From the IMG/VR virus record IMGVR_UViG_3300045117_000169, positions 1 to 22,768 of that record: a DNA stretch of 22,768 nucleotides. The stretch is one strand, 5' to 3'. Shown here piece after piece: positions 4,157 through 17,749 of the stretch (within the stretch, counting starts at the first letter, position 1; each line of letters starts with the position of its first letter). The notes beneath the pieces are model-generated. The model was not told the origin of the DNA. It saw nothing but the letters and a program-made list of their open reading frames with translations, and ran no database searches. A program made the translations under genes and the position numbers. The DNA is from a virus.

Positions 4157-4207
4157 TGGATTATAATATGTTAAATTTGGTATCATTATTTAACATATTA
4201 TAATCCA
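4157..4207. repeat. 20-bp perfect inverted repeat, likely 3'-end hairpin of the upstream operon
   Basis: Arms 4157-4176 and 4188-4207 are perfect 20-bp reverse complements with an 11-nt loop. The stop codon of the HAD-like gene (4200-4198) lies inside the stem, and the next promoter follows at 4078. On the minus-strand transcript the stem is followed by UUCAAAAAA, not a U-run, so a classic intrinsic terminator is doubtful. It may be a 3'-end stabiliser, a processing site or a weak terminator separating two operons. Confidence 0.6.
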
Positions 4208-4791
4208 TTTTTACATGTTATCAGATGGTATATATCTTCCCACGAATTTACTATTTGTATTAATTGTCTCAAAATACTACCACTTTTGAGTATATTTATA
4301 TTCCAACTTCTTGAGAATAGTATTGGTATAATACCGGCATTTGCAACATTTACTATATTATTCATATAATCATCAATAAAATGAGTTACGCCAAGCGATC
4401 TACAAAGCTTTCCTTTATCTTTAGTATAATAAAGGTTTACCTTTTCGTATGTCTGTTTATCCAAATTATGTTGTAGATAGAAATCTACAGGTTCCAATAC
4501 TTTTCTATTTGTTATTATATATATATAGTTTGTTTTCGCGTACCATTTAAGGAAATCTAGTGCGCCATCAATAGTTGGTGTTGCTATAGTATTGTCATGA
4601 TTTAAGCATAAATTTAGAATTTTTTCTGCGTCTTTTTTTGTCATTCCCGGATAATTTAGCTCTATAGTATAATGTTTTATAGTCTCAAGCCCTACGGGGT
4701 AACCAAGATGTTCGGTTATTAGGCCGCATAATGTTATTGCAGTATCAACAATAACAGAATCGAAATCAAATCCCAATAAATTTATTTTCAT
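4198..4791 (-). CDS. HAD-superfamily phosphatase / 5'-nucleotidase-like protein
   Basis: Protein of 197 aa with the four HAD motifs in order: motif I GFDFDSVIVDT (nucleophile D9, acid/base D11), motif II IITNRK (T94), motif III lysine in YTKDKGKL (K125 or K128), and motif IV THFIDDYMNN (D140, D141). The size and the motif spacing fit small phosphatases of the 5'(3')-deoxyribonucleotidase type, which hydrolyse (d)NMPs; the substrate is inferred. A role in phage nucleotide metabolism is reasonable. No signal peptide. The gene starts 19 bases after the DHH phosphoesterase gene; no clear ribosome binding site is seen. Its stop lies inside a 20-bp hairpin. Confidence 0.8.
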   Translation of the reverse strand: MKINLLGFDFDSVIVDTAITLCGLITEHLGYPVGLETIKHYTIELNYPGMTKKDAEKILNLCLNHDNTIATPTIDGALDFLKWYAKTNYIYIITNRKVLEPVDFYLQHNLDKQTYEKVNLYYTKDKGKLCRSLGVTHFIDDYMNNIVNVANAGIIPILFSRSWNINILKSGSILRQLIQIVNSWEDIYHLITCKNGL

Positions 4792-4810: not shown

Positions 4811-5641
4811 TCATATAATTAATTCTCCAATAGTAAACCCGGCAGCCCCTTTATGTCCACCACCACCAAATTTTTTGGCAATTTCTCCACAATGAACATT
4901 ATCTTTTGTTGAATATAGCCCATATTGCCAAGTTTTTTGGGAAGTATGAATATATGTAACCATTATATCATGTAAATCGGGGTTGTAAACCGAATCAAAT
5001 AAAGGCGAGCCGCCAACATTATTACATATAACCGCCCTTAGTCCTTCAAAACAACCTTCTCTATTGTAAATTTTTACATGTTTTTCGTTGGTAATGTCAA
5101 CCCAGGATTTTATAATTCTGCCCGTGTTGATAATATGTTCTGTGAGGCGGTCATTTTCAAATAGCATTTCCCATATGTGTGAATTAACAGGGAGGTCTTG
5201 CTCTCTCATGCCATATTGAAAATAAACTATCTCATTATTATGTTGCCATACATCATATCTACCAAGATATTTAACTACTTTTGGTATTTTTGTATTAGGG
5301 AACAAATATTCCCAAGTTAGTTCGCAGCTGGCCTTGGAAATATCCAATTTACCATAGTGATAAAATCCCGCCTCTTTAATGGCATCAATGGCGGTGATGT
5401 GATGGTCTAAGATAATCACATCATTAATACCCGACAACTCCCTCATGATATCAATTGGTGCTATGATATCACAAAAGAATATTATTTCGTTAACAAATTT
5501 TCTATCCAATATTTTGGCTTTGAAATTATCATTGTAGTTAAGTGGTATAAGTTCGGCTTTGTTTTCCCAATAATGAACAATGGCGGCAGAACATTTACCA
5601 TCCAAGTCGGCAGAATGATAATAACAAACAATATTATTCAT
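4811..5641 (-). CDS. DHH/DHHA1-family phosphoesterase
   Basis: Mn-dependent phosphoesterase of the DHH superfamily (NrnA-like nano-RNases, cyclic dinucleotide and pAp phosphatases, RecJ). Motif I is HSADLDG (H9, D12, D14), motif II FFCDI (D58), motif III LDHH (D79, H80, H81), and the DHHA1 substrate-binding signature GGGGHKGAAGF is at residues 259-269. At 276 aa it has the NrnA-like domain pair without RecJ extensions. I start at ATG 5641, not ATG 5653, because GGAG sits six bases upstream of the former. A 20-codon frame at 5696-5634 overlaps the start and could be a leader, but I see no ribosome binding site for it. Likely role: turnover of short oligonucleotides or signalling nucleotides during infection. 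Confidence 0.9.
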   Translation of the reverse strand: MNNIVCYYHSADLDGKCSAAIVHYWENKAELIPLNYNDNFKAKILDRKFVNEIIFFCDIIAPIDIMRELSGINDVIILDHHITAIDAIKEAGFYHYGKLDISKASCELTWEYLFPNTKIPKVVKYLGRYDVWQHNNEIVYFQYGMREQDLPVNSHIWEMLFENDRLTEHIINTGRIIKSWVDITNEKHVKIYNREGCFEGLRAVICNNVGGSPLFDSVYNPDLHDIMVTYIHTSQKTWQYGLYSTKDNVHCGEIAKKFGGGGHKGAAGFTIGELII

Positions 5642-5706
5642 TGAATACTCCATATTCTTTATCTGTTATCCTATCAAATCTTACAAAATTCAACATAATA
5701 TTCTTT

Positions 5707-6126
5707 TCATTTAGTATATATCCAAAAACAGGGTTTTTGGTAATCGTCAAAATCACCACATATCACGTTAGTAACAATTCCCGTTTTATCAAAGTATATA
5801 TCTGTGCTGATATATTTATTATATCCAGGATAACCACTACCAGTTAAATTAGGTATAAGATTGATTGTACTACCAAATATACCATGAAAAGCATATCTGT
5901 ATTGCCAAATTTCTGTCCAATAGTCATAACAAGACCTGTTAAGAATGGTTGTAGGTGTAATACTTATAATTCTTTTTACGTCTTCTTTGGTGGATTTACC
6001 AACAACAATTTCTTTCCAGGGATTAAAGTCCCTCGGAACCGGCCCCGAAATACAGGCACTAATTAGTAAAATTATTACACCGACTGTTGTTGCTGTTGTT
6101 ACTCTTCTTGTTCTTCCGAGTACCAT
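5707..6126 (-). CDS. Lipoprotein with BamE/SmpA-like domain
   Basis: Protein of 139 aa. A basic N-terminus (MVLGRTRRVTT), a hydrophobic stretch and a lipobox LISAC predict lipidation at Cys25 and export. The mature part contains PWKEIVVGKSTKEDVKRI, the strand-then-helix signature of SmpA/OmlA/BamE-like lipoproteins (xxVGxSTKxDVxxxxG), followed by YFDKTGIVTNV, which fits the closing strands of that fold. BamE itself works in the outer-membrane assembly complex; a phage copy might act in envelope modification or superinfection exclusion, which is inference. The gene overlaps the phosphatase gene upstream by 28 bases; AGAGG lies 8-9 bases before the ATG. Confidence 0.75.
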   Translation of the reverse strand: MVLGRTRRVTTATTVGVIILLISACISGPVPRDFNPWKEIVVGKSTKEDVKRIISITPTTILNRSCYDYWTEIWQYRYAFHGIFGSTINLIPNLTGSGYPGYNKYISTDIYFDKTGIVTNVICGDFDDYQKPCFWIYTK

Positions 6127-6536
6127 TCTATGTGCCTCTTCAGTATTGTATTAAGTATTTTATTATATACAAATACATTTGGTATGTATTTACGAAAATA
6201 CATATCATCATCTTCATTCCAAATTTTACTCAGTGCGGCAGCGACTGCCGGTGACCTGGAAATACCAGCATTACAATGAACAATGACTTCATCTATATCA
6301 TTTTCCCAAATATCAACAACATCAAGGATTTTGCCAGCTTGTGTTTCGGTAAAAAGCACAAGACCAGCTTTGGGGGATGATATATCATCAAACTTAAGAT
6401 GAAGTGTTGCCATTCTGTTCTCATTAATAGGAAGTTTTACTTCCTTTTCATCAGTACCAGTTATACTTATCAGAATATGTTTGTTGGTAAACAATTCTGA
6501 TTCTATAATTATACGCGGTAATGGAGTAAATTTCAT
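6099..6536 (-). CDS. Dual-specificity / tyrosine phosphatase-like protein
   Basis: Cysteine phosphatase of 145 aa. The active-site P-loop is VIVHCNAGISRSPAVAAA (C88, R94), the HCxxGxxRS signature of dual-specificity phosphatases. The start is ATG 6536 rather than ATG 6548 because GAGGA lies a few bases upstream of the former; it overlaps the end of the RNA ligase gene. The fold also includes RNA 5'-triphosphatases (for example baculovirus BVP). Given the neighbouring RNA ligase, an RNA 5'-end or protein substrate are both possible; the sequence does not decide. Confidence 0.85.
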   Translation of the reverse strand: MKFTPLPRIIIESELFTNKHILISITGTDEKEVKLPINENRMATLHLKFDDISSPKAGLVLFTETQAGKILDVVDIWENDIDEVIVHCNAGISRSPAVAAALSKIWNEDDDMYFRKYIPNVFVYNKILNTILKRHIEWYSEEQEE

Positions 6537-6537
6537 C

Positions 6538-7536
6538 TTATTCCTCATACTTTAATAGATATTGTGGATTAATAACTTTGAAAGAGAATCTACCAAAACC
6601 ATCAATCCACATCTCGTTTAATGGTCTCAAAACAATTCCTTCTCTGTGAACTTTAGGATTAATCTTGCTTCTATCAAAAGACATGTCAACCAAATTATGA
6701 ACACTGTGATTTAATAGAATATTATCCAAGATGGGCACGGTTTTTAGACCAAGTGATCTTATGGTATTTACAAAATCATTTTTATCCAGATATCTTTTTG
6801 TATCAATATCAAATACATTATAAAAATAAATATCATGTTCTTTTAGTGCAAGAACATTTTTTTGGATACCAGGGCCAACTAATTCACCTTGTAATACAAC
6901 ATTAAATCCTAATTGTTTTATCTTATTTTCCAAATCAAGCCTAATTGCTGTTTGGAAAAAAGTATTTCTAAAGTTGTCAGGATCATCTATTTTTAATTCT
7001 AGATTATGAGAACATACACCAAATTTCCCATCTTTAATATAAACAGTTATGCTCGAACCATCAAGCTTTTCTGTTATGTATAAAATAGTGCCCGCATATT
7101 CCTCTATAATATGGGGAATATTCTGCACTCTTTCTTCATCTGTTCTGGGTATGAAGCCAGGAAAATATCCTTTTATTTTGCCAGCTAATTGTGCTGGTAA
7201 AGGTGTCTCGTATTTTTCAATTCCTAAAATTTCGGAAACATCTTGACCCACTTCATAACAACCACCAGGTAAAATAGTCATAGGAAAACAAATTCCCTGA
7301 CTAATTTGACCTTTTAGTTTTATAGTTTTGATTTTCTTGCTTTTAAGAAAAGCAAAACTTGGATTATCCTTTGGAAGTTTAGAATCTATTTCACAATAAA
7401 CACATAAATCACCCTCGTTAAATTCGTTTTTACGAATTACAACTTCCCATCCATCTACACGAGCACAGACAATATTATCTGCGCCCATGATTGGGGAGAT
7501 TTTGTTTATTGTTCTGATAGATGCCATTTTTCTCAT
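6538..7536 (-). CDS. RNA ligase, DRB0094 (Rnl5-like) family
   Basis: ATP-dependent RNA ligase, 332 aa, close to the 342 aa of the Deinococcus radiodurans enzyme. The N-terminal OB-like module carries the family phrase MRKMASIRTINKISPIMGADNI and VDGWEVVI, then NEGDLCVYCEIDSKLP. The nucleotidyltransferase domain has motif I EKLDGSS (lysine 157, the AMP acceptor), motif III-like FYNVFDI, motif IV EGIVLRP (E299) and motif V FKVIN (K320). The family repairs RNA nicks with a 3'-OH/5'-phosphate. The start at 7536 is supported by family-like MRK at the N-terminus; an internal ATG at 7527 is possible. First gene behind the promoter at 7571-7599, heading an operon with the phosphatases. Confidence 0.92.
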   Translation of the reverse strand: MRKMASIRTINKISPIMGADNIVCARVDGWEVVIRKNEFNEGDLCVYCEIDSKLPKDNPSFAFLKSKKIKTIKLKGQISQGICFPMTILPGGCYEVGQDVSEILGIEKYETPLPAQLAGKIKGYFPGFIPRTDEERVQNIPHIIEEYAGTILYITEKLDGSSITVYIKDGKFGVCSHNLELKIDDPDNFRNTFFQTAIRLDLENKIKQLGFNVVLQGELVGPGIQKNVLALKEHDIYFYNVFDIDTKRYLDKNDFVNTIRSLGLKTVPILDNILLNHSVHNLVDMSFDRSKINPKVHREGIVLRPLNEMWIDGFGRFSFKVINPQYLLKYEE

Positions 7537-7570
7537 TATATTATAATTCCATTCTTCATATTTTCCTATT

Positions 7571-7599
7571 ATTATATCATATCAGGCCCCAAAAGACAA
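7571..7599 (-). promoter_or_regulatory. Sigma70-type promoter, phage motif copy 2
   Basis: On the minus strand: -35 TTGTCT (7599-7594) followed by TTTG, 17-bp spacer, extended -10 TGATATAAT with the hexamer at 7576-7571. It has the same elements and spacing as the copies at 4050-4078 and 10610-10638. It drives the RNA ligase operon. Between it and the 3' end of tRNA-Gln there is a T7 run on the minus strand (7607-7601), which may help end the upstream tRNA transcript. Confidence 0.8.
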
Positions 7600-7608
7600 T
7601 AAAAAAAT

Positions 7609-7683
7609 TGGCAGGAGAGTCTGGAATTGAACCAGAATAACATGGGTCAAAGCCATGCACCTATACCGCTCGGTCACTCTCCT
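7609..7683 (-). tRNA. tRNA-Gln (anticodon UUG)
   Basis: Acceptor AGGAGAG pairs with CTCTCCT. D arm ACC/GGT, anticodon stem CATGG/CCATG with loop CTTTGAC giving anticodon TTG, T stem TCTGG/CCAGA with loop TTCAATT. The discriminator base is G, as usual for tRNA-Gln, and the CCA end is encoded. Phage-encoded; reads CAA, which suits AT-rich codon usage. Confidence 0.95.
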
Positions 7684-7702
7684 TTATTATTAATTTTATG
7701 GT

Positions 7703-7843
7703 TTAGTATGCCATTTCGATATATTTAATCATCTGACTAGTTGTAAATCCCATTTGAGATGAAACAAAATATAATGTATAACTAGATACTGTGTTAACAG
7801 GTGTATCCATTAACCATGACCAAAAACTCAATTTTGTTGTCAT
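7703..7843 (-). CDS. 46-aa protein between tRNA genes, unknown
   Basis: ATG at 7843 is preceded by a strong ribosome binding site (AAAGGGGTaaattATG), which itself begins within a few bases of the end of tRNA-Gly. The protein starts MTTKLSFWSWLMDTP and ends QMIKYIEMAY. It has no long hydrophobic segment and no known motif. The good initiation site in a gap between two tRNA genes is the main evidence that it is real; it would be translated from the tRNA precursor transcript. Confidence 0.65.
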   Translation of the reverse strand: MTTKLSFWSWLMDTPVNTVSSYTLYFVSSQMGFTTSQMIKYIEMAY

Positions 7844-7857
7844 AATTTACCCCTTTA

Positions 7858-7933
7858 TGGAGCGGCCAGGGGGATTTGAACCCACCAACTCCCAGTTTGG
7901 AAGACTGGAACTCTACCATTGAGTTATGGCCGC
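7858..7933 (-). tRNA. tRNA-Gly (anticodon UCC)
   Basis: Acceptor GCGGCCA pairs with TGGCCGC. D arm ACTC/GAGT, anticodon stem CCAGT/ACTGG with loop CTTCCAA giving anticodon TCC. T arm GTGGG/CCCCC with loop TTCAAAT has one T-C mismatch. The discriminator is T, as in tRNA-Gly, and CCA is encoded. Reads GGA. Confidence 0.94.
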
Positions 7934-7964
7934 CTATTTTTTGTTATCTATAGAAATATTTTAA

Positions 7965-8060
7965 TCATAAGTTGTTTTCTATAGCATATTTCATTTTATC
8001 ACAACATATTTTTTCTATTGATATAATATGAAACTTCTTTTTAATAATATTATACTTCAT
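7965..8060 (-). CDS. 31-aa small ORF, doubtful
   Basis: A short frame starting at ATG 8060, twelve bases after the macro-domain stop codon, with GAGA at a short distance upstream. The product is Lys/Ile-rich (MKYNIIKKKFHIISIEKICC...) and ends before tRNA-Gly. No family recognised. Its position and the weak ribosome binding site make it possible, not secure; otherwise this 138-base stretch holds nothing I can name. Confidence 0.35.
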   Translation of the reverse strand: MKYNIIKKKFHIISIEKICCDKMKYAIENNL

Positions 8061-8071
8061 AACGTCTCATT

Positions 8072-8506
8072 TTATAAAGATATTACCGAAAATCTATCAT
8101 CAAATAGATTTTCAATAGCTGGTTTTATAGTTTTATTCCAACTTAGTTGACCAAATCCACAGCCCGGTCTAGGTAATATAATTTTAGGAATTTGCATTAT
8201 ATTGACTAGTTCTATTAATTGTTTACATGATCTTAGTATTAATTGTAAATCTGATTTTTCCCACCAATTATGTTTAGTGGGAAAATTGAATACACCAATA
8301 AATTTGTCAAATTGGCCAAGATAGTAAACATTGTTACCATCAAGTAATTTATCACCTAAAATTTTAGGTAATGTTGGTATTAATTTGGCCGCTTTAAGTG
8401 CGAGCCCTTTACCCATAACGGCCTCTCCATTTTTCTTTATATTACCATTAGTGGTAATAACTATATTTTCGGAGACATTAAATATATTGCCGGATATTTC
8501 TATCAT
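8072..8506 (-). CDS. Macro-domain protein, ADP-ribose 1''-phosphate phosphatase-like
   Basis: Macro domain over the whole 144 aa. Signatures: ITTNGNIKKNGEAVMGKGLALKAA (Asn-rich loop then GxGxA; binds the distal ribose) and the C-terminal PRPGCGFGQLSW phosphate-binding loop. This combination, NxxGxxVMGxGxAxxA and P-x-x-GxGxGxLxW, is that of the Poa1p-like Appr-1''-phosphate phosphatase branch. Such enzymes process the ADP-ribose phosphate left by tRNA 2'-phosphotransfer, or remove ADP-ribose. Nearby RNA ligase, nucleotidyltransferase and tRNA genes make an RNA-repair role attractive, but removing host ADP-ribosylation is an alternative. The ATG follows the previous stop by three bases, with no ribosome binding site, suggesting coupling. 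Confidence 0.88.
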   Translation of the reverse strand: MIEISGNIFNVSENIVITTNGNIKKNGEAVMGKGLALKAAKLIPTLPKILGDKLLDGNNVYYLGQFDKFIGVFNFPTKHNWWEKSDLQLILRSCKQLIELVNIMQIPKIILPRPGCGFGQLSWNKTIKPAIENLFDDRFSVISL

Positions 8507-8509
8507 TTT

Positions 8510-8740
8510 TTATTTTTGTTGTAATGTAGTTTTTTTGTATTTAGTAGCCCTTCTATTACGGGGCCAACCAGAGACATCGTTGCGGTCGCCGCAGCCGCAC
8601 GTTGTTATATAGGCTTTACAGTCCAAACACCGCATTTCCGCACCCTCACAATACGGAGTTGAACAATCAAGACTAACATAGTAGGAAGTGCTCAAATTCT
8701 TATGTTTACACTTCACAACTTTTTTCCAAAATTTATCCAT
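8510..8740 (-). CDS. Cys-rich zinc-binding phage protein, 76 aa
   Basis: The pattern is CKHKN, then DCSTPYCEGAEMRCLDCKAYITTCGCG, then SGWPRNRR. The string C-S-T-P-Y-C-x-G-x-E-x-x-C-x-x-C and the CGCG-x-x-x-x-x-SGWP tail recur in small uncharacterised phage proteins (from memory). About eight cysteines and one histidine could bind two zinc ions. AAGGA lies about seven bases before ATG 8740. Function unknown; the basic C-terminus (KYKKTTLQQK) is compatible with nucleic-acid binding. Confidence 0.75.
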   Translation of the reverse strand: MDKFWKKVVKCKHKNLSTSYYVSLDCSTPYCEGAEMRCLDCKAYITTCGCGDRNDVSGWPRNRRATKYKKTTLQQK

Positions 8741-8878
8741 AAGACATCCTTAATGAATCAAAACTTTTATATATTCGGTTAATTTTAGCTATGTTCTATT
8801 TTTCCCATTTTAATTTGTGTCAATTTGTGATGTAAGCCTGTTAACCTTGTGGGTGTTTTTATCTCATTTTTCGTATCT

Positions 8879-8966
8879 TGGCGGCACGAGTAGGATTTGA
8901 ACCTACGGACGTTTTACCGTCAATGGTTTAGCAAACCATCGCCTTGAGCCCCTCGGCCATCGTGCC
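8879..8966 (-). tRNA. tRNA-Ser (anticodon GCU)
   Basis: Class II tRNA. Acceptor GGCACGA pairs with TCGTGCC, anticodon stem ATGGT/ACCAT with loop TTGCTAA giving anticodon GCT, a long variable arm GACGGTAAAACGTC, T arm GTAGG/CCTAC with loop TTCAAAT, discriminator G and encoded CCA. Reads AGC/AGU. Its first nucleotide (8966) is also the last base of the TAG stop codon of the gene upstream. Confidence 0.95.
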
Positions 8967-9184
8967 TATTTATTTATGATCATCTTTATGTAATCATCTG
9001 GTAATAAACCATAGATAAATGGTACTATATGATTACCATATTTACTCTCTATATATAGCCAATATAGTCCTTTATTGTCTATATATAGAGAGTAGTTGGC
9101 TAATTTGGCCGTTATATTATTTATTAACTTGCCATATATTCTTATTACACCCTTGACGGTATCAAAAGGTATAATCTTATACAC
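8966..9184 (-). CDS. 72-aa protein, unknown
   Basis: Starts with GTG at 9184, overlapping the stop of the preceding gene (GTGTATAA), so translation is likely coupled. The protein begins MYKIIPFDTVKGVIRIYGK and is rich in Tyr and Ile, with no cysteines and no clear membrane helix. It contains a 16-bp perfect inverted repeat (9043-9058/9079-9094) that encodes two similar phrases, YSLYI and LYIES. The TAG stop shares its last base with tRNA-Ser. No ribosome binding site is visible; function unknown. Confidence 0.6.
   Translation of the reverse strand: MYKIIPFDTVKGVIRIYGKLINNITAKLANYSLYIDNKGLYWLYIESKYGNHIVPFIYGLLPDDYIKMIINK
9043..9094. repeat. 16-bp perfect inverted repeat inside a coding sequence
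   Basis: Arms TACTCTCTATATATAG (9043-9058) and CTATATATAGAGAGTA (9079-9094), 20-nt loop. In the minus-strand mRNA it forms a hairpin about 80 bases upstream of tRNA-Ser. It could be an RNase III-type processing site or incidental. Confidence 0.6.
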
Positions 9185-9536
9185 GGCTTAACAATTCTCT
9201 TGCCCAACCAACTAACGTTGCCTGCTTAAAATAAGCCTGGCAGCGTTTAATGAACTTTACCAAGGTTTCAAACTCCAACCCGGCATATCCATTGTAGAAC
9301 CACGAAGGTGGAAATTTTATATCATCCAGAGACTTTTCTTTCTCTGCCCACCTTGCTGCTCTGGCATAGGCAACATCTTTACCCATTTCGGGGTTATAGT
9401 CTTCATACAGATTCCACTGTGCATAACCTATAATAATCTCATTAGTGTATGGATTAACAAACCCCACAAATGTAGTTTTTTTCAGGTTAGGCGTACGACC
9501 TACATTGCCTTTCACATACTGAAAAATCGTTTGCAT
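9177..9536 (-). CDS. Conserved-looking phage protein, 119 aa, unknown
   Basis: Strong initiation site AAAGGAGtttttATG at 9536, behind the promoter at 9556-9584. The sequence has a basic N-terminus with GNVGRTPNLKK, strands FVGFVNPYTNEIIIGYAQWNLYEDYNP, then a charged helix GKDVAYARAARWAEKEKSLDDI and a C-terminal helix FETLVKFIKRCQAYF. The sequence IGxxxWN...D.NPxxGxxxAxxRAxRWA is typical of small phage proteins of unknown role. No transmembrane segment or catalytic motif is recognised. Confidence 0.8.
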   Translation of the reverse strand: MQTIFQYVKGNVGRTPNLKKTTFVGFVNPYTNEIIIGYAQWNLYEDYNPEMGKDVAYARAARWAEKEKSLDDIKFPPSWFYNGYAGLEFETLVKFIKRCQAYFKQATLVGWARELLSRV

Positions 9537-9555
9537 AAAAACTCCTTTTTATTTT

Positions 9556-9584
9556 AGTATATCACAAAGAATTAACTTTGTAAA
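9556..9584 (-). promoter_or_regulatory. Sigma70-type promoter, extended -10
   Basis: Minus strand: -35 TTTACA (9584-9579), 17-bp spacer, -10 TATACT (9561-9556) preceded by TGA (extended -10). It lies 20 bases upstream of the start of the 119-aa gene, with its -35 inside the last codons of the nucleotidyltransferase gene. It probably also transcribes the tRNA genes further down. Confidence 0.6.
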
Positions 9585-10591
9585 CCATAGGTTTTAAGTA
9601 TCAGATTATCCACAAAATTTTGGTTCCAGTTGCTTATGAACTCACTGGATATATTAGAAATTTCATCTAAACCCGATACAATCAGGTTTTCAACTTCTGA
9701 CCAAGGATATTCCCCCTGTTTAATTTTAATGAGAATATCTGCTTCTGTTAATGGGAAAATAATTTTCCCATTAGTTAAAAGCTGTTTTGTCTGATAAATG
9801 GCCCGTATAGCATGAGAAATTGCTTTCCAATCAATACCTTTGTTTTGTTCTGCCAATTTGGCCCTATGTCCATATTCATTATAGGCTTTATCAATTCTTT
9901 GGTAAAATTCTCTCATCGAAATATTACCCTGATGAACTTTACCACAAACTATCAAACACCGATTATTACCAATTTCTTTGACAAAGCAATATGATTCATC
10001 GCCGAATATATCAACTATTGTATCAATCCAAAGAGAAAGTTTATTATTATCCCTTTTCTTGGATTTTAGGTAGTCTTCTTCAAAGTTATCACAAAACCAT
10101 TTGTGAATTTTTTTAAGAACTCCTAAACGACTTCCTTTGATACCATATTTTTTAGCTTGACCAATAGCATATTTTGTATATGCTAATTCCGATGTGGTAA
10201 TAAGTTTATCTGTATTATCAAAAAACAAGTCCATAGGATAATGTTTTTCGATAATACAGTTTTCGTTTGTATAAGAAAAGAGAACATCAAGAGCAATAGT
10301 TTCGCCCTTTCTTACCAATTCTATCCAGTATTGCAATGAATATAACTCAATATCAATGTCACTGGCATTGTTTTTTGTTACATTATCACTAGTTTGGTGA
10401 TTAATGGTTATAATTTTCCTACCAAGAACAAGATTTTCTAGACTTGGTAGAAAAATACCTTTATAGTCCAAATCACTATTTTCAGTGTTGGTACCGTAAA
10501 GATGTGAACCAAACTTCACCAAATAGATTAGTTTGCTTTTGTGTTTTTCACAAAGCTCGTAGACAATCTTCATGTTATTTTTTTTAGTCAC
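9572..10591 (-). CDS. Nucleotidyltransferase, RlaP-like (DNA polymerase beta superfamily)
   Basis: Protein of 339 aa (333 if ATG 10573 is used). The catalytic signature is VKFGSHLYGTNTENSDLDYKGIF: GS-x-x-YGT-x-x-x-x-SDxDxxG, with the two metal-binding aspartates of the pol-beta fold, and a third candidate Asp in SDIDIELYSL. This is the predicted nucleotidyltransferase family PF10127, whose member RlaP is tied to RNA repair. The substrate is not known from the sequence. A long helical C-terminal domain follows (HAIRAIYQTKQLL, ADILIKIKQGEYPWSEVENLI), as in that family. GTG 10591 and ATG 10573 both lack a strong ribosome binding site. Transcribed from the promoter at 10610-10638. Confidence 0.88.
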   Translation of the reverse strand: MTKKNNMKIVYELCEKHKSKLIYLVKFGSHLYGTNTENSDLDYKGIFLPSLENLVLGRKIITINHQTSDNVTKNNASDIDIELYSLQYWIELVRKGETIALDVLFSYTNENCIIEKHYPMDLFFDNTDKLITTSELAYTKYAIGQAKKYGIKGSRLGVLKKIHKWFCDNFEEDYLKSKKRDNNKLSLWIDTIVDIFGDESYCFVKEIGNNRCLIVCGKVHQGNISMREFYQRIDKAYNEYGHRAKLAEQNKGIDWKAISHAIRAIYQTKQLLTNGKIIFPLTEADILIKIKQGEYPWSEVENLIVSGLDEISNISSEFISNWNQNFVDNLILKTYGLQS

Positions 10592-11092: not shown

Positions 11093-13063
11093 ATGTTGAA
11101 CACAACAGACTTTAAAGAAATCATTTTGAAAATGAGAGAAGAAAAACCATCTATTAATTGGGAAGGAACTTTACTTGACTATTTACAGATGGTAAAGGAT
11201 AATCCTCAAATATCACAACTAGCAACTGCGCGAATGTTTAATGCTATTATGAAATATGGCACTTCGCCAATAGATAAAGATTATAAAGTTATGGGCTATG
11301 ATGACCTTGTATCTTATAACTACTTTAATGATAAGATATTTGGTACTTTGGAACCAATTCATGATTTAATGAAATTTCTGAAAGCTGGGGCACATAGAAC
11401 AGAAACTGGTAAAAGAATTTTATTGTTGGTTGGGCCGCCTAGTTCCGGTAAAAGCACCTCTGTGTACTGGTTAAAAAGGTGTTTAGAGAACGATACAACA
11501 CCAAAATATGTTATAAAAGGCTGTCCTATACACGAGGAGCCGTTAAACCTGATTCCAATAGAAGACAGGGCATATTGGGAAGAAGTTTTGGATGTGAAAA
11601 TAGAAGGCAAACCCTGCCCTGTTTGTCAATATAATTTGGACAATTTATATACCGACATTTCTGGCCATACAAAATGGGAAGAGGTGCCAGTAATCCAATT
11701 TAAGTTCTCAGAACATAGACGTAAGGGAATCGGGGTTTTCCAGCCTTCTGATCCGACTAGTCAGGACGAATCAGAATTGATCGGAAGGTTGAATTTATCT
11801 AAAGTGGCGCGATATGGTGATGGCGACCCAAATTCATATTTATTTGATGGTGCCTTGGAAGTCGCTAATGGTGGTATGCTTGACTTTATTGAATTGCTAA
11901 AATCAAACGAAAGATTGTTATATCTTCTTATAACAGTAGCACAAGAAAAACTTATCAAGTCACCTAGTGGTACATTTCCACAGATTTATATTGATAGTTT
12001 TTTGGTTGGTCATACAAATTTAACTGAGTACGAAAAATTCATTTCTCGTAAAGAAAACGAGGCACTACACGATAGAATCTATGTGGTAAAATGGCCCTGG
12101 AATCTCAAAGTCAGTAACGAAGTTCAAATTTACAATAAACTCATTAAGGAGTCTGAGTTTAAGAATATCCATATTGCTCCACATACACTAGAAATAGCAG
12201 CAAAGTTTGCTGTTGTAACTAGACTTGTTCCACATGCTCGTTGTTCATCATTGATGGAAAAGGTTAAAATTTACAATGATGAGTCTATATCAGAATTTAA
12301 AAAAGAAGAAATTGATATTAAAGATATAAAAAAGGATGGTCGCGAAAGAGGTGAGGGTATGTTTGGTATATCACCTAGATATATCATAAATTCACTTAAT
12401 ATCGCACTTGCACAAAAAGAGGATAAGAAATGTATATGTCCGGTTGACATTATCAATACACTTATATATGCTTTTGATAATCATATTGGTTATACACCAG
12501 AGGAGAAGGATAGGTTTTTATCCCTATTGAAAGGTGACAAAGAAAGTATTGTTAAAGAGTACGTTGATATAGCAAAACGTGAGGTTCAGCTTAGTTTTCT
12601 ACATGCTTATGATGAGCAGGCACAGGCACTATTCGAGAATTATATGCGGAATGCAGAGGCTTTTTGTAAAGGGGATAAGATTTATCACGAGCCTACAGGC
12701 GAGTATTCTGTGCCAGATGAAAAACTAATGCGGGGCATCGAAGAACTTTGTAACGTGCCCATCAATTCCAAAAAAGAATTTAGAAATGGTATTTTTGTCC
12801 ATAAATCTGCAGCATTAGAACGCGGGGAGCCTTTCACATTTGAAACCTTTAAGGTTATCAAGGAAGGTATTGAAAAAAAACTAATGCAGTCCCTCAAAGA
12901 TATAGTCAAGTTGACTTTGATCGATCCTATTAAACAACTTAATGAAAAAACAAAAAGACGTAGAAATGATGTAATTGAAAATCTTAAACAACGTGGCTAT
13001 TGTGATTCCTGTGCTAAGGTAATACTTACTTTTGTAGGAGAAATCCTTGCCAAAACAGAATAG
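11093..13063 (+). CDS. prkA: PrkA-family serine protein kinase (YeaG-like)
   Basis: Protein of 656 aa, close to E. coli YeaG (644). An AAA+-type N-terminal domain carries Walker A GPPSSGKST (114-122), a zinc-type CPVC insertion (175-178), the family signature VFQPSDPTSQDESELIG (215-231), and GGMLDFIELLK as the Walker B region. The C-terminal PrkA kinase domain shows the conserved ending GEYSVPDEKLMRGIEEL, then a basic-to-acidic helix EKKLMQSLKDIVKLT. In bacteria PrkA is a stress and stationary-phase Ser kinase encoded with yeaH and ycgB/spoVR. GAGG lies a few bases upstream of ATG 11093. The gene is intact and followed by yeaH 20 bases later. Confidence 0.95.
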   Translation: MLNTTDFKEIILKMREEKPSINWEGTLLDYLQMVKDNPQISQLATARMFNAIMKYGTSPIDKDYKVMGYDDLVSYNYFNDKIFGTLEPIHDLMKFLKAGAHRTETGKRILLLVGPPSSGKSTSVYWLKRCLENDTTPKYVIKGCPIHEEPLNLIPIEDRAYWEEVLDVKIEGKPCPVCQYNLDNLYTDISGHTKWEEVPVIQFKFSEHRRKGIGVFQPSDPTSQDESELIGRLNLSKVARYGDGDPNSYLFDGALEVANGGMLDFIELLKSNERLLYLLITVAQEKLIKSPSGTFPQIYIDSFLVGHTNLTEYEKFISRKENEALHDRIYVVKWPWNLKVSNEVQIYNKLIKESEFKNIHIAPHTLEIAAKFAVVTRLVPHARCSSLMEKVKIYNDESISEFKKEEIDIKDIKKDGRERGEGMFGISPRYIINSLNIALAQKEDKKCICPVDIINTLIYAFDNHIGYTPEEKDRFLSLLKGDKESIVKEYVDIAKREVQLSFLHAYDEQAQALFENYMRNAEAFCKGDKIYHEPTGEYSVPDEKLMRGIEELCNVPINSKKEFRNGIFVHKSAALERGEPFTFETFKVIKEGIEKKLMQSLKDIVKLTLIDPIKQLNEKTKRRRNDVIENLKQRGYCDSCAKVILTFVGEILAKTE

Positions 13064-13083
13064 TTGTTTGTGGAGTAAATTAA

Positions 13084-14376
13084 ATGCCAATTATTAATCA
13101 TGACCAGTGGAACATTTCCCAAAAAGGTCATAAAGATGTTGAAAGACACAGACAAAAAATAGATAAGGCCATTAGGGGATCTGTTGAAGATATTGTGGCC
13201 GAAGAATCTATTATTACCAAAAAACGCGAAGGTACAGTAAGGGTATCTGTACGTGGTATGCGCGATTATAGATTTATTCATAGCAATAATAATAGGAATA
13301 TGGGGGGTGTGGGCACAGGCAAGAGCAATCCTGGTGATATTATTGCCCGTAAATCTAAAAGGAATACCAGTAAACCTGGTGACCAAAAAGGTGAAGACTA
13401 CATGGAAGTGGAAATCGATATTGATTATCTACTTCGGATTATGTTTGATGATTTGGAACTACCATTCATCGAACAAAAAAATAAAGTTATCAAATTGGTA
13501 ACTACTAATTATAAAACAGAATTTATTGCTAAAACTGGTAAATATTCCCTTATTCATAAAAAAATGACACTGGTCGAAACAATCAAAAGAACGATGTGTG
13601 ATATTCACGAAATCATAAACACAACTAAATGTGATGAAAATGACGCCCATAGGGCATACATACAAAGTGATTATGATATAAAAAAGGCCATACAAATAAT
13701 TTTAGATGGACAAATTGATAAAACTATTTGTCCAGACATATTACCCAACATTGAAGATGATGATATTAGATTCAGACAAATACATAAAGAAGAGGAACCA
13801 ATCAGTAACGCGGTCATATTTTTTATGTGTGATACTTCTGGATCTATGGACACAAAAAAGAAGTACATTGCCAGAAGCTTGGCCTTTTGGATGTATGAAT
13901 TTATAAAATCCAAGTATAATTATGTAGATGTGAGATTTATTGTTCATACCACAGAAGCTAAACTTGTAAATGAAGATGAATTTTTTAAGCGTGGGGAAAG
14001 CGGCGGAACTTTATGTCATACAGCATTTGATCTACTGGAACATTTAATAGACACGGAATACCCTATTTCTGAGTATAATATCTATATTCAGTATTTTTCC
14101 GATGGTGAAGATTTTAACCCCGATGCTACTGTAAACAGCATCAAGAGATTACTTAATAGGGGAATAAATCTTATAGGTTATGCCGAAATAGTTCTGCAAA
14201 ACAGCGGGTGGAGTTCGCCGGAACTTCTAGGAAAGATGATAAAACAATTTGGTATGAAGGAAAAAAACAACGGCATCAAATTTTATCGTAGTGATTGGCG
14301 AATAATGGCTGGTATCATAGAAAATAAAACAAAAATTTATCCATATTTGAAAAATTTATTTAAGGTAGACAAATAA
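13084..14376 (+). CDS. yeaH: YeaH/YhbH-family protein (DUF444) with vWA domain
   Basis: Protein of 430 aa, about the length of E. coli YeaH. The N-terminus has the family pattern with a basic helix (NISQKGHKDVERHRQKIDKAI) and glycine-rich loop (NMGGVGTGKSNPGD). The C-terminal von Willebrand A domain has a MIDAS: DTSGSMD (D250, S252, S254), a glycine-Thr loop SGGTLCHTA, and YFSDGEDF. In bacteria YeaH is the partner of PrkA; its biochemical role is unknown, though vWA proteins often pair with AAA+ ATPases. GGAG lies eight bases before ATG 13084. The stop overlaps the next ATG (TAATG). Confidence 0.95.
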   Translation: MPIINHDQWNISQKGHKDVERHRQKIDKAIRGSVEDIVAEESIITKKREGTVRVSVRGMRDYRFIHSNNNRNMGGVGTGKSNPGDIIARKSKRNTSKPGDQKGEDYMEVEIDIDYLLRIMFDDLELPFIEQKNKVIKLVTTNYKTEFIAKTGKYSLIHKKMTLVETIKRTMCDIHEIINTTKCDENDAHRAYIQSDYDIKKAIQIILDGQIDKTICPDILPNIEDDDIRFRQIHKEEEPISNAVIFFMCDTSGSMDTKKKYIARSLAFWMYEFIKSKYNYVDVRFIVHTTEAKLVNEDEFFKRGESGGTLCHTAFDLLEHLIDTEYPISEYNIYIQYFSDGEDFNPDATVNSIKRLLNRGINLIGYAEIVLQNSGWSSPELLGKMIKQFGMKEKNNGIKFYRSDWRIMAGIIENKTKIYPYLKNLFKVDK

Positions 14377-14633: not shown

Positions 14634-16259
14634 TCATCTTATCACTATCTTGTACTTATTCTCGTATTTTTTAAATGCTTCGTATTGGTTTTTAGTAATA
14701 TACAAATCGCCACCAATACTAACATTATCTGGCAGTTCTTCTATTGGTGTATCAGATAAATGACAATTGCCCTTTACTACTAAATTCTTACCTATTTTTC
14801 TTATTTTACTATAAGATAAATTCAAATCGCTACCAATACTAACATCATCTGGTAGTTCCTCTATTGGTGTATAAGATAAATCACAATAACTTTTTACTAT
14901 TAAATTCTTACCTATTTTTCTTATTTTACTATAAGATAAATCCAAATTACTACCAATACTAACATCATCTTGTATTTCTTCTATTGGCGCATAAGATAAA
15001 TCACAATTACCTTTTATTATTAAATTCTTACCTATTTTCTTTATGCCACTTCCATATAAATACAAATTGCCACCAATATTAACATTATCTAGTAGTTCTT
15101 CTATTGGTGTATAAGATAAATAACAATTACCTTTTACTACTAAATTCTTACCTATTTTTCTTATTTTACTAAAATATAAATTCAAATCACCACCAATACT
15201 AACATTATCTGGTAGTTCTTCTATTGGTGTATAGCGTAAATCACAATAACCATTTACTACCAAATTCTTACCTATTTTCTTAATTTTACTATAAGATAAA
15301 TTCAAATCACCACCAATACTAACATTATCTGGTAGTTCTTCTATTGGTGTATAGCGTAAATCACAATAACCATTTACTACCAAATTCTTACCTATTTTCT
15401 TAATTTTACTATAAAATAAATTCAAATCACCACCAATACTAACATTATCTGGTAGTTCTTTTATTGGTGCATAAGATAAATCCAAATCACCTTTTACTAC
15501 TTTGGGTAAATTATCATAAGTATATAGTTTACTATCTATAAATATCATGTTTATATTAAGAGTATCTCGTACTTCATCATAATTACCACTATTAATAAAA
15601 TCTATTACATACTTATGGTACTTGGGAACTACTTCCTTATTACTATGTCCTTTTATTTGATATATAGTATTTTCTCTTTGTTCTATAGTTACATGTGGGT
15701 TGTTACTTGTATCTCGTAAACTATAAATAATTATTTGTTCACTAATTACATAATCACAGTATCCACCAACACAGTGTCCCATTAGTTTACCTTCACGTTC
15801 CAGGGCTTGTTTAGTTAATAGTCTTACCCAGAACATACCATTGGGATATTTTTTAATTAGTTTAACGTCACTACTATCTTCATCACTACTAGCTTTCTTA
15901 ATTAGTTGTCTAGTCCATTCTTCACTCTTACTAATAGCATCCAGTACTGATATTCTAGATATATCACCAGGCAATGTTCTTAAGTAATCTACTACATGAT
16001 GTATTTTGTCTTTGAATTCTCTAGTAATAGTTATTTGGTACAATTCTGTTGATTTCTTAGCCCATAGTGGTGCATTTTTAGGCAACTGTGTTACTAGTTG
16101 TACATTATCATACTTGTTTATTAAGTAGTTCTTAAGATTGGATTTTAACCATTTTACTACATTGGGATTATTAACTGTCTGGGACAAATCTACTATAAAT
16201 TGGTCTATAGTATCTAAATTATAGATATTACGTTCTAGTAGGTAGTTTAGTAGTCTCAT
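14634..16259 (-). CDS. Tagged protein with PcfJ-like domain and 20-residue beta-repeat solenoid, 541 aa
   Basis: Begins with the tag MRLLNYLLE (residues 1-9) seen on other proteins here. Residues 150-225 hold a PcfJ-like segment: LEREGKLMGHCVGGYCD, IIIYSLRD, NPHVTIEQ, QIKG, KYHKYVIDFI. Residues 251 to about 521 are 13-14 units of 20 aa alternating between ELPDNVSIGGDLNLSYSKI and KKIGKNLVVNGYCDLRYTPI types (40-aa period), probably a beta-solenoid. The last part is YENKYKIVIR. Starts over the stop of the 497-aa gene (CTATGA), with no ribosome binding site. The first 127 bp recur inverted at 22642-22768. Function unknown; I infer an internal head protein from the tag. Confidence 0.85.
   Translation of the reverse strand: MRLLNYLLERNIYNLDTIDQFIVDLSQTVNNPNVVKWLKSNLKNYLINKYDNVQLVTQLPKNAPLWAKKSTELYQITITREFKDKIHHVVDYLRTLPGDISRISVLDAISKSEEWTRQLIKKASSDEDSSDVKLIKKYPNGMFWVRLLTKQALEREGKLMGHCVGGYCDYVISEQIIIYSLRDTSNNPHVTIEQRENTIYQIKGHSNKEVVPKYHKYVIDFINSGNYDEVRDTLNINMIFIDSKLYTYDNLPKVVKGDLDLSYAPIKELPDNVSIGGDLNLFYSKIKKIGKNLVVNGYCDLRYTPIEELPDNVSIGGDLNLSYSKIKKIGKNLVVNGYCDLRYTPIEELPDNVSIGGDLNLYFSKIRKIGKNLVVKGNCYLSYTPIEELLDNVNIGGNLYLYGSGIKKIGKNLIIKGNCDLSYAPIEEIQDDVSIGSNLDLSYSKIRKIGKNLIVKSYCDLSYTPIEELPDDVSIGSDLNLSYSKIRKIGKNLVVKGNCHLSDTPIEELPDNVSIGGDLYITKNQYEAFKKYENKYKIVIR
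14697..15509 (-). repeat. Tandem 120-bp repeats encoding the beta-solenoid of the 541-aa protein
   Basis: About seven 120-bp units. Two neighbours, 15181-15300 and 15301-15420, differ at one base, so expansion is recent or the units are being homogenised. Confidence 0.9.
16133..16259 (-). repeat. Inverted copy of the sequence at 22642-22768 (125 of 127 bases identical)
   Basis: The 5' end of the 541-aa gene matches the start of the plus-strand gene at the window edge, in opposite orientation. Identity starts exactly at the ATG; the two differences (at 16167 and 16140) are third-codon and synonymous. The true end of the repeat lies outside the window. Confidence 0.95.
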
Positions 16260-17749
16260 AGTATTACTATCTTGTACTTATTCTCGTATTTTTTAAATGT
16301 TTTGTATTGGTTTTTACTAATGATTAAATTACCACCAATATTAACATTATCTGGTAGTTCTTCTATTGGTGTACGACGTAAATTGCAATTGCCCTTTACT
16401 ACTAAATTCTTACCTATTTTTCTTATTTTACTATAAAATAAATCCAAATTGCCACCAATACTAACATTATCTAGTATTTCTTCTATTGGTGTACTAGATA
16501 AACTACAATTACCATTTACTACTAAATTCTTACCTATTTTCTTGATATTGCTATAAGATAAATACAAATTGCCGACAACATTAACATTATCTGGTAGTTC
16601 TTCTATTGGTGTATGAGATAAATCACAACTACTTTTTACTACTAAATTCTTACCTATTTTCTTAATATTACTAAAAGATAAATCCAAATTACCACCAATA
16701 CTAACATTATCTGGTAGTTCTTCTATTGGTGTATAGCGTAAATCACAATAACCATTTACTACCAAATTCTTACCTATTTTTCTTATTTTACTATAAGATA
16801 AATTCAAACTACCACCAATACTAACATTATCTGGTAGTTCTTCTATTGGTAATTGAGATAAATCACAATTACCTTTTACTACTAAATTCTTACCTATTTT
16901 TCTTATTTTACTATTATATAAATCCAAATTACCATTAATAGTTATATTATCTGGGACTTCAGTTATATCACTAAAAGATAAATCCAAATCATCATTTATT
17001 ACCATACTACTTACTAATTTGATATTAGTAATAGTTCTACGTTCAAATCCAGTTGTATCAACGTCTCTATGTATTTTAAATACACCTTGTTTATTACTTT
17101 GAATACCATCTAACCACTTTTGTACTGTTTTACTAAAACCGGGTATATTACCCACATAACATCTATCACTAGCCACTAGATATACTTCACTAGTATTAGT
17201 ATCTACATATGGTTTAATAGCTATTCTAGCTATTGGCTCGTTTATGTTTTTATCGTTATCCCTAATAAGATATGCTACAATGGTACCGGCTTCTATTTCT
17301 AGTGGTATTTTGTTTTTACCTGCGTCTTTTTTGATTAAGTCCATACAACTAGTCCATCCTCTATTAGTACTCATACTAGCTATATCATAGGGATGTCTGG
17401 ATATTACTACCAGTACATTATCTGTGTTTAGTTCTTTAGTATTATTATATAGTTTTAGCATATCTGTATTACCACTTTTTTGTAGTACTTTACCTATTCT
17501 TATTTCATTGTTGCTATTTGATTTCTTACATAATCCTTTTTTGTAGTTGGTTATTGTGTAACCAAGTGATAGTAAATAGTCTCTAATACCCTTAGGTGGT
17601 TCTATTTCTATTTCGCCCTCAAATGGTAGGTATAGCCTGTACTTATTACCAAATATTGAATCATATCTAGATTTGTCCCAATTTTTAGAATATTTTCTAG
17701 CTATTGATACTGGTAATGCTTCTATTAGGTAGTTTAGTAGTCTACTCAT
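16256..17749 (-). CDS. Tagged protein with beta-repeat solenoid, 497 aa
   Basis: Tag MSRLLNYLIE at residues 1-10. The N-terminal domain (to about 240) has RHPYDIASMSTNRGWTSCMDL, then GTIVAYLIRDND, then EPIARIAIKPY, then WLDGI. This order (Cys motif, YLIRD strand, PIARIAI strand) parallels the PcfJ-like segment of the 541-aa protein, so the two domains may share a fold. From about residue 246 there are 12 repeats of 20 aa of the same two types as in the next gene, and the same end, YENKYKIVI. It overlaps the stop of the gp14-like gene upstream and the start of the 541-aa gene downstream. No signal peptide. Function unknown. Confidence 0.85.
   Translation of the reverse strand: MSRLLNYLIEALPVSIARKYSKNWDKSRYDSIFGNKYRLYLPFEGEIEIEPPKGIRDYLLSLGYTITNYKKGLCKKSNSNNEIRIGKVLQKSGNTDMLKLYNNTKELNTDNVLVVISRHPYDIASMSTNRGWTSCMDLIKKDAGKNKIPLEIEAGTIVAYLIRDNDKNINEPIARIAIKPYVDTNTSEVYLVASDRCYVGNIPGFSKTVQKWLDGIQSNKQGVFKIHRDVDTTGFERRTITNIKLVSSMVINDDLDLSFSDITEVPDNITINGNLDLYNSKIRKIGKNLVVKGNCDLSQLPIEELPDNVSIGGSLNLSYSKIRKIGKNLVVNGYCDLRYTPIEELPDNVSIGGNLDLSFSNIKKIGKNLVVKSSCDLSHTPIEELPDNVNVVGNLYLSYSNIKKIGKNLVVNGNCSLSSTPIEEILDNVSIGGNLDLFYSKIRKIGKNLVVKGNCNLRRTPIEELPDNVNIGGNLIISKNQYKTFKKYENKYKIVIL
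16319..17014 (-). repeat. Tandem 120-bp repeats encoding the beta-solenoid of the 497-aa protein
   Basis: About six 120-bp units related to those at 14697-15509. A stretch near 16692-16780 matches the 15181-15400 units of the neighbouring gene almost exactly over about 90 bp, pointing to recombination or gene conversion between the two genes. Confidence 0.88.

Follow-up and report, generated by a model that had tools for sequence, protein, structure and literature searches.

The stretch of DNA considered here (the window) is the whole IMG/VR virus record IMGVR_UViG_3300045117_000169, a fragment of 22,768 bases from a larger genome, and at positions 6099–10591 it carries a cluster, entirely on the minus strand, composed of genes for a DRB0094-type RNA ligase, an RlaP-family nucleotidyltransferase, a macro domain protein and a Cys-type phosphatase, together with tRNA-Gln, tRNA-Gly and tRNA-Ser. 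These genes had been named in an earlier reading of the same DNA (the original prediction), and all of them are present at the place given there, as judged from open reading frames (ORFs), family matches, and ARAGORN and Rfam. Near-unchanged copies of the region occur in two further IMG/VR records, so the layout is not a one-off assembly error; gene order, family membership, the intactness of the catalytic motifs and the integrity of the tRNAs are all directly observed.

Ligase, nucleotidyltransferase and tRNAs of the cluster

The ligase gene (6538–7536, minus strand; 332 aa) encodes an ATP-dependent RNA ligase of the DRB0094/Rnl5 type: its score against TIGR02306 (RNA_lig_DRB0094) is 184.4 bits, above the curated cut-off of 151.15, and an N-terminal OB module (PF21189; 4–86, 103 bits) is followed by a C-terminal nucleotidyltransferase domain (PF09414; 152–322, 97 bits). 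Motifs I, IV and V (KLDGSS, EGIV and FSFKVI) are intact across ten relatives, and the best solved relative is the RNA ligase of Naegleria gruberi (5cot; E 1e-69); indeed, both the whole-length domain layout and the motifs are common to DraRnl (DRB0094) and to N. gruberi NgrRnl. Unlike these two enzymes the window ligase is viral, and its substrate is a predicted one. The closest sequences found are chromosomal, from Chlorobiota and Bacteroidota (53–55%), while the closest viral ligases, at 48–50%, fall below them; together with a weak Shine-Dalgarno signal before several window genes, these relatives hint at a Bacteroidota-like host, neither observation being proof. In a survey of 87 DRB0094 loci, mostly from viral contigs of which some are kin, the families recurring within 5 kb were Rnl1-type ligases (21), cREC (21), calcineurin phosphoesterases (20), a kinase-like P-loop family (9) and the CCA-adding enzyme (4); a tRNA lies within 5 kb of the ligase in 20 of 78 ligase loci.

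The largest gene of the cluster (9572–10591, minus strand; GTG start, 339 aa) encodes a Pol-beta nucleotidyltransferase of the RlaP family, similar to T4 NrdC.11 (33% identity over 317 columns), which matches PF10127 with 55.2 bits (gathering score 23) and phrog_388 with an E value of 6e-67. Its active site reads GSxxYGT...SDxD, and G28, S29, D40, D42 and D69 are invariant among six relatives, the third aspartate, D69, being less sure given a gap near it in two of the six. The family is matched by 1,466 phage records, many of them T4-like, and the closest relatives of the window protein tend to lie near tRNA arrays: 3–22 tRNA genes are found within 10 kb in five of the seven closest relatives, versus 15 of 70 others (p = 0.011). 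For jumbo phages RlaP has been described as the commonest end-restoring nucleotidyltransferase, with a distribution mirroring that of RNA ligases (PMC7824862).

The three tRNAs, all on the minus strand, are tRNA-Gln (UUG; 7609–7683, Rfam 58 bits), tRNA-Gly (UCC; 7858–7933, 59.7 bits) and tRNA-Ser (GCU; 8879–8966, 57.5 bits); ARAGORN and Rfam agree on all of them (57–60 bits each). Each is uninterrupted and carries an encoded CCA, and a role of RlaP in CCA repair of these tRNAs was discarded, since the first CCA is encoded and does not require it. It has been reported that DRB0094 ligases are enriched 140-fold in phages with tRNA-linked theta ribozymes, 54.5% of which possess such a ligase, and a tRNA-related role was proposed by the authors (PMC10879173); one might accordingly suppose that the window ligase serves tRNA maturation, for example by sealing or processing the transcripts of phage tRNAs, and not the repair of damage. 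This proposal is considered quite improbable: the window tRNAs are complete as encoded, and an Rfam scan of their strand in the window returned no ribozyme or other RNA family besides the tRNAs. No theta ribozyme was found beside the tRNAs, where the search gave two weak plastid matches on the opposite strand.

Co-occurrence of the genes and a proposed role in tRNA repair

The pairing of a ligase with RlaP is already published for phages, and the cluster is of a known kind. The jumbo-phage repair sets built on RlaP and an ATP-grasp RNA ligase (PMC7824862, citing Burroughs and Aravind 2016) share with the window RlaP, an ATP-dependent ligase and phage tRNAs; the window differs in that its ligase is of the DRB0094/Rnl5 type, in that a dual-specificity-type (DUSP-type) phosphatase gene overlaps the ligase gene, and in that no recognised end-healing kinase or phosphatase is present in the fragment.

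On balance, we favour the view that the cluster represents a commonplace set of phage accessory genes protecting translation and nucleic acids during infection, in which the ligase, RlaP and the tRNAs would carry out tRNA repair or replacement. The DRB0094 ligase would reseal RNA breaks having 3'-OH and 5'-phosphate ends, most plausibly in cut tRNAs; RlaP would restore any nucleotides missing from the broken ends, while host tRNAs would be replaced or supplemented by the three that the phage encodes. The 5'-phosphates might be supplied by a kinase encoded elsewhere in the genome, or the breaks might already bear them. The substrates, the cooperation of ligase and RlaP and every biochemical step of this scheme are thus predicted ones.

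Several observations weigh against this view. Neither an RlaP nor a phosphatase neighbour was found in 80 bacterial ligase loci; no kinase or 3'-end-healing enzyme of a known type is visible within the fragment (no kinase appears among the family matches of the window, the record covering only 22.8 kb); and the literature searched reports no RlaP activity, the role of this enzyme there being a predicted one. Moreover, RlaP is no more frequent in ligase-bearing records (7 of 50) than in phosphatase-bearing ones (4 of 33; p = 1.0), a weak test in that the 33 phage records used for comparison are not a neutral set. The distance between ligase and RlaP is as expected by chance (p = 0.24, or 0.09 with Sinorhizobium phage phiM12 included), the p-values for this and the other distances being approximate, since positions were taken by hand from match coordinates and several records are kin.

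These figures bring in the main competing explanation, possible although clearly less probable in our judgement, namely that the cluster lies in a variable accessory region where ligase, RlaP, macro protein, phosphatase and tRNAs were gathered separately and belong to no single pathway. Besides the unremarkable co-occurrence and spacing of ligase and RlaP and the bacterial ligases that stand without such neighbours, it is favoured by a lipoprotein-like gene packed against the phosphatase gene as tightly as the ligase gene is, and by a related contig that carries PrkA and two structural genes but shows no sign of the cluster in 19.7 kb. Against it stand the RNA-repair genes that recur near DRB0094 ligases, the repeated adjacency of phosphatase and ligase described below, and an association of RlaP with the macro protein that goes beyond chance: among the 50 ligase-bearing records a macro gene occurs in nine, being present in five of the seven with RlaP versus four of the 43 others (p = 0.001), and the two genes lie closer than chance predicts (p = 0.002 to 0.015). 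A macro gene lies within 7 kb in 15 of 77 RlaP loci, mostly in T4-like phages.

With the original prediction came the proviso that relatives in which these genes never co-occur would speak against it; ligase and RlaP are in fact found together in the seven ligase records already mentioned, in phiM12 and in Aeromonas phage Aes012.

The macro domain protein and the Cys-type phosphatase

The macro gene (8072–8506, minus strand) encodes a protein of 144 aa consisting of the macro domain alone. It scores slightly below the cut-off of PF01661, and DarG models are its best matches both in NCBIfam (1.7e-14) and in PADLOC (3.6e-15); against the full-length NCBIfam DarG model it reaches 53.9 bits, below the cut-off of 250. 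The DarG antitoxin, its best family match, has a C-terminal DarT-binding part which the window protein lacks. A profile of seven phage macro relatives, compared with solved structures, ranks DarG (8e-19) and TARG1 (3e-14) far above Poa1 (1.5e-4), and the NFPTK loop, whose lysine we take to be a catalytic-loop residue, is kept in the window protein and aligns with the DarG structures 5m31/5m3i, so that this catalytic-loop motif is common to both.

The Appr-1''-phosphatase-like assignment made earlier does not agree with this ranking, and an Appr-1''-phosphatase route was rejected on the strength of the macro profile ranking and of the absence of KptA from 40 ligase-bearing relatives. The protein is most likely, judging from its sequence, a macro-only DarG-like enzyme that removes ADP-ribose, from DNA or from other molecules; it probably acts apart from the repair set, as a separate ADP-ribose eraser, and may counter DarT. 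Phages do need answers to DarT, and the characterised ones, AdfA and AdfB, are not macrodomains (PMC11481870). N4-like, Listeria and Moorella phages encode relatives of the window protein, none of them flanked by an annotated RNA-repair gene; in one virus record a macro gene (G005:C1:15513-16046) and a DRB0094 ligase gene (L026 9998-11008) are separated by about 59 bases.

Comparison with other phages modifies the picture further. T4 encodes nrdC.11 and, 5 kb off, the macro protein Tk.4, an arrangement that resembles the window cluster, although Tk.4 is only 25% identical to the window macro protein and is without the DarG-type NFPTK loop, and the Rnl1 and Pnkp on which T4 relies are encoded at other places in its genome. 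The contrast with T4 previously drawn was therefore overstated: the window phage is not set apart from T4 by its RlaP and macro protein, because T4 has both. In Aes012 the neighbours of a DRB0094 ligase gene are rnlA and pseT, and since both systems coexist there, this ligase need not replace rnlA/pseT. In phiM12 (NC_027204, 120.2–130.3 kb) a DRB0094 ligase, NrdC.11 and a macro protein lie within about 10 kb, as in the window; unlike in the window, the macro protein is annotated as Poa1-like and is without the NFPTK loop, and no DUSP-type phosphatase or tRNA is annotated in the stretch read.

The phosphatase gene (6099–6548, minus strand; 149 aa) encodes a Cys-based enzyme of the dual-specificity type, matched by phrog_5614 and, under the curated cut-off, by DSPc (2.7e-6). 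An AlphaFold model built from an alignment of 30 viral relatives (pLDDT 95.5) has STYX, DUSP28 and MAP-kinase phosphatases as its best fold matches (Z 12.5 and lower). The P-loop reads HCNAGISRS, and the invariants of the family are H-C-x-A-G-x-x-R-S, whereas the Cys-type RNA 5'-triphosphatases (Mce1/BVP/DUSP11) carry HCTHGxNRTG. The suggestion that the enzyme might be an RNA 5'-triphosphatase was dismissed on this ordinary DUSP P-loop; no RNA triphosphatase appears among the 50 fold matches listed, an absence which by itself excludes nothing.

The gene overlaps that of the ligase by 11 bases; this tight packing shows little, because the lipoprotein-like ORF at 5707–6126 overlaps the phosphatase gene likewise. 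More telling is the recurrence of the pair: a relative of the phosphatase has a DRB0094 ligase gene as its immediate neighbour, on one side or the other, in eight contigs (L053, L079, L095, L134, L139, L141, L142 and L167) labelled freshwater by a guess from sample groups, and in Pseudomonas phage PhiPA3 (L103 4953-7419) the two are separated by two small genes. Since most of the freshwater contigs are kin, the independent pairings are two or three, the window included; that this phosphatase family is a neighbour of DRB0094 ligases in as many separate lineages of phages is new here. In Sinorhizobium phage Phosso (L101 913-8420) a relative of the window phosphatase lies beside genes for an RNA ligase and an ATP-grasp protein, with Cys- and Ser-tRNA synthetase-like genes and a tRNA with a CUA anticodon also within these 8 kb.

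An explanation compatible with the tRNA-repair reading, although unlikely, is that the two genes, for ligase and phosphatase, constitute one module in which the Cys phosphatase would either heal RNA ends or, through dephosphorylation, regulate the ligase or the translation machinery. The repeated adjacency, the near-adjacency in PhiPA3 and the overlap in the window are consistent with it, as is the distance between the two genes, shorter than chance predicts in phosphatase-bearing records having a ligase (p = 0.0005); the small number of independent cases counts against it, as do the 25 of 33 phosphatase-bearing records in which no DRB0094 ligase was seen and the P-loop and fold, which are those of protein- or lipid-type DUSPs. 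To our knowledge, no RNA substrate of a DUSP-type phosphatase has been described, nor do we know of a role for one at RNA ends or as a ligase switch. The stronger proposal, that the pair is an RNA-repair module conserved among phages, with a Cys phosphatase instead of Pnkp preparing the ends or switching the ligase, appears decidedly doubtful.

Flanking genes and significance of the cluster

Downstream of the phosphatase, outside the cluster, lies a gene for a DHH-DHHA1 phosphoesterase (4811–5653, minus strand; phrog_4771, 6e-42), possibly an accessory one. In L092, which holds the nearest distinct IMG/VR relative of the window ligase, a DHH relative lies 2.1 kb away from the ligase gene; another, in phage csAssE-Sib (L109 4136-5930), has a gene overlapping that of a Pnkp beside an array of four tRNAs. 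Linkages of the 2',3'-cyclic type are possible substrates of DHH enzymes (PMC7824862), and this property, with four enzymes lying within 4.5 kb, would suit the route envisaged in the original prediction: a Pnkp-free repair of 2',3'-cyclic or 2'-phosphate ends, in which the macro protein would be an Appr-1''-phosphatase and the Cys phosphatase would heal the ends. Such a route is nevertheless judged highly improbable: the macro protein is of the DarG type; Tpt1/KptA was found in none of the 40 ligase-bearing records searched, which argues against a 2'-phosphate step; T4-type Pnkp, whole or in part, occurs in six of the same 40; Aes012 has both systems; and the search for a kinase in this phage covers the 22.8-kb fragment only. 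What stands of the RNA-repair island, and of the alternative repair route read into it, is that ligase, RlaP and tRNAs fit the phage tRNA-repair theme (PMC7824862); the roles given to the macro protein and the phosphatase, and with them the 2'-phosphate and Appr-1''-phosphate part, are not upheld.

Two further minus-strand genes on this side are probably foreign to the repair set. The small lipoprotein-like ORF between the phosphatase and DHH genes begins like a signal peptide, contains the lipobox-like sequence LISAC and gave no family match in Pfam or PHROG scans; the HAD-type phosphatase gene at 4198–4791 (phrog_420, 5e-12), considered as a stand-alone 3'-phosphatase, was not counted as a repair gene because it groups with T4 gp30.2/NT5C, the phrog_420 members being gp30.2 in Aes012 and gp30.2/NT5C in phiM12. 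On the other side, PrkA kinase and YeaH/DUF444 genes adjoin at 11093–14376 (plus strand); a related contig (L100) carries both (56% and 46% identity, respectively) plus two of the window's structural genes, and when viral contigs were searched with PrkA as the single protein, one relative only was returned. Two adjoining large ORFs of 541 and 497 aa (14634–17749, minus strand) are about 65% identical across 287 residues and look like a duplication; one of them has a PcfJ-like and leucine-rich-repeat match.

As to what the cluster may mean for phage biology, the DarG-type macro protein suggests that such phages may encounter a further, separate defence in the form of DNA ADP-ribosylation, and the repeated pairing of a DUSP-type phosphatase with a DRB0094 ligase offers a concrete, testable lead. 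If ligase and RlaP act jointly on cut tRNA, an Rnl5-type branch would be added to phage tRNA repair, and the cluster would provide a compact set for testing the role of RlaP, so far predicted in the literature.

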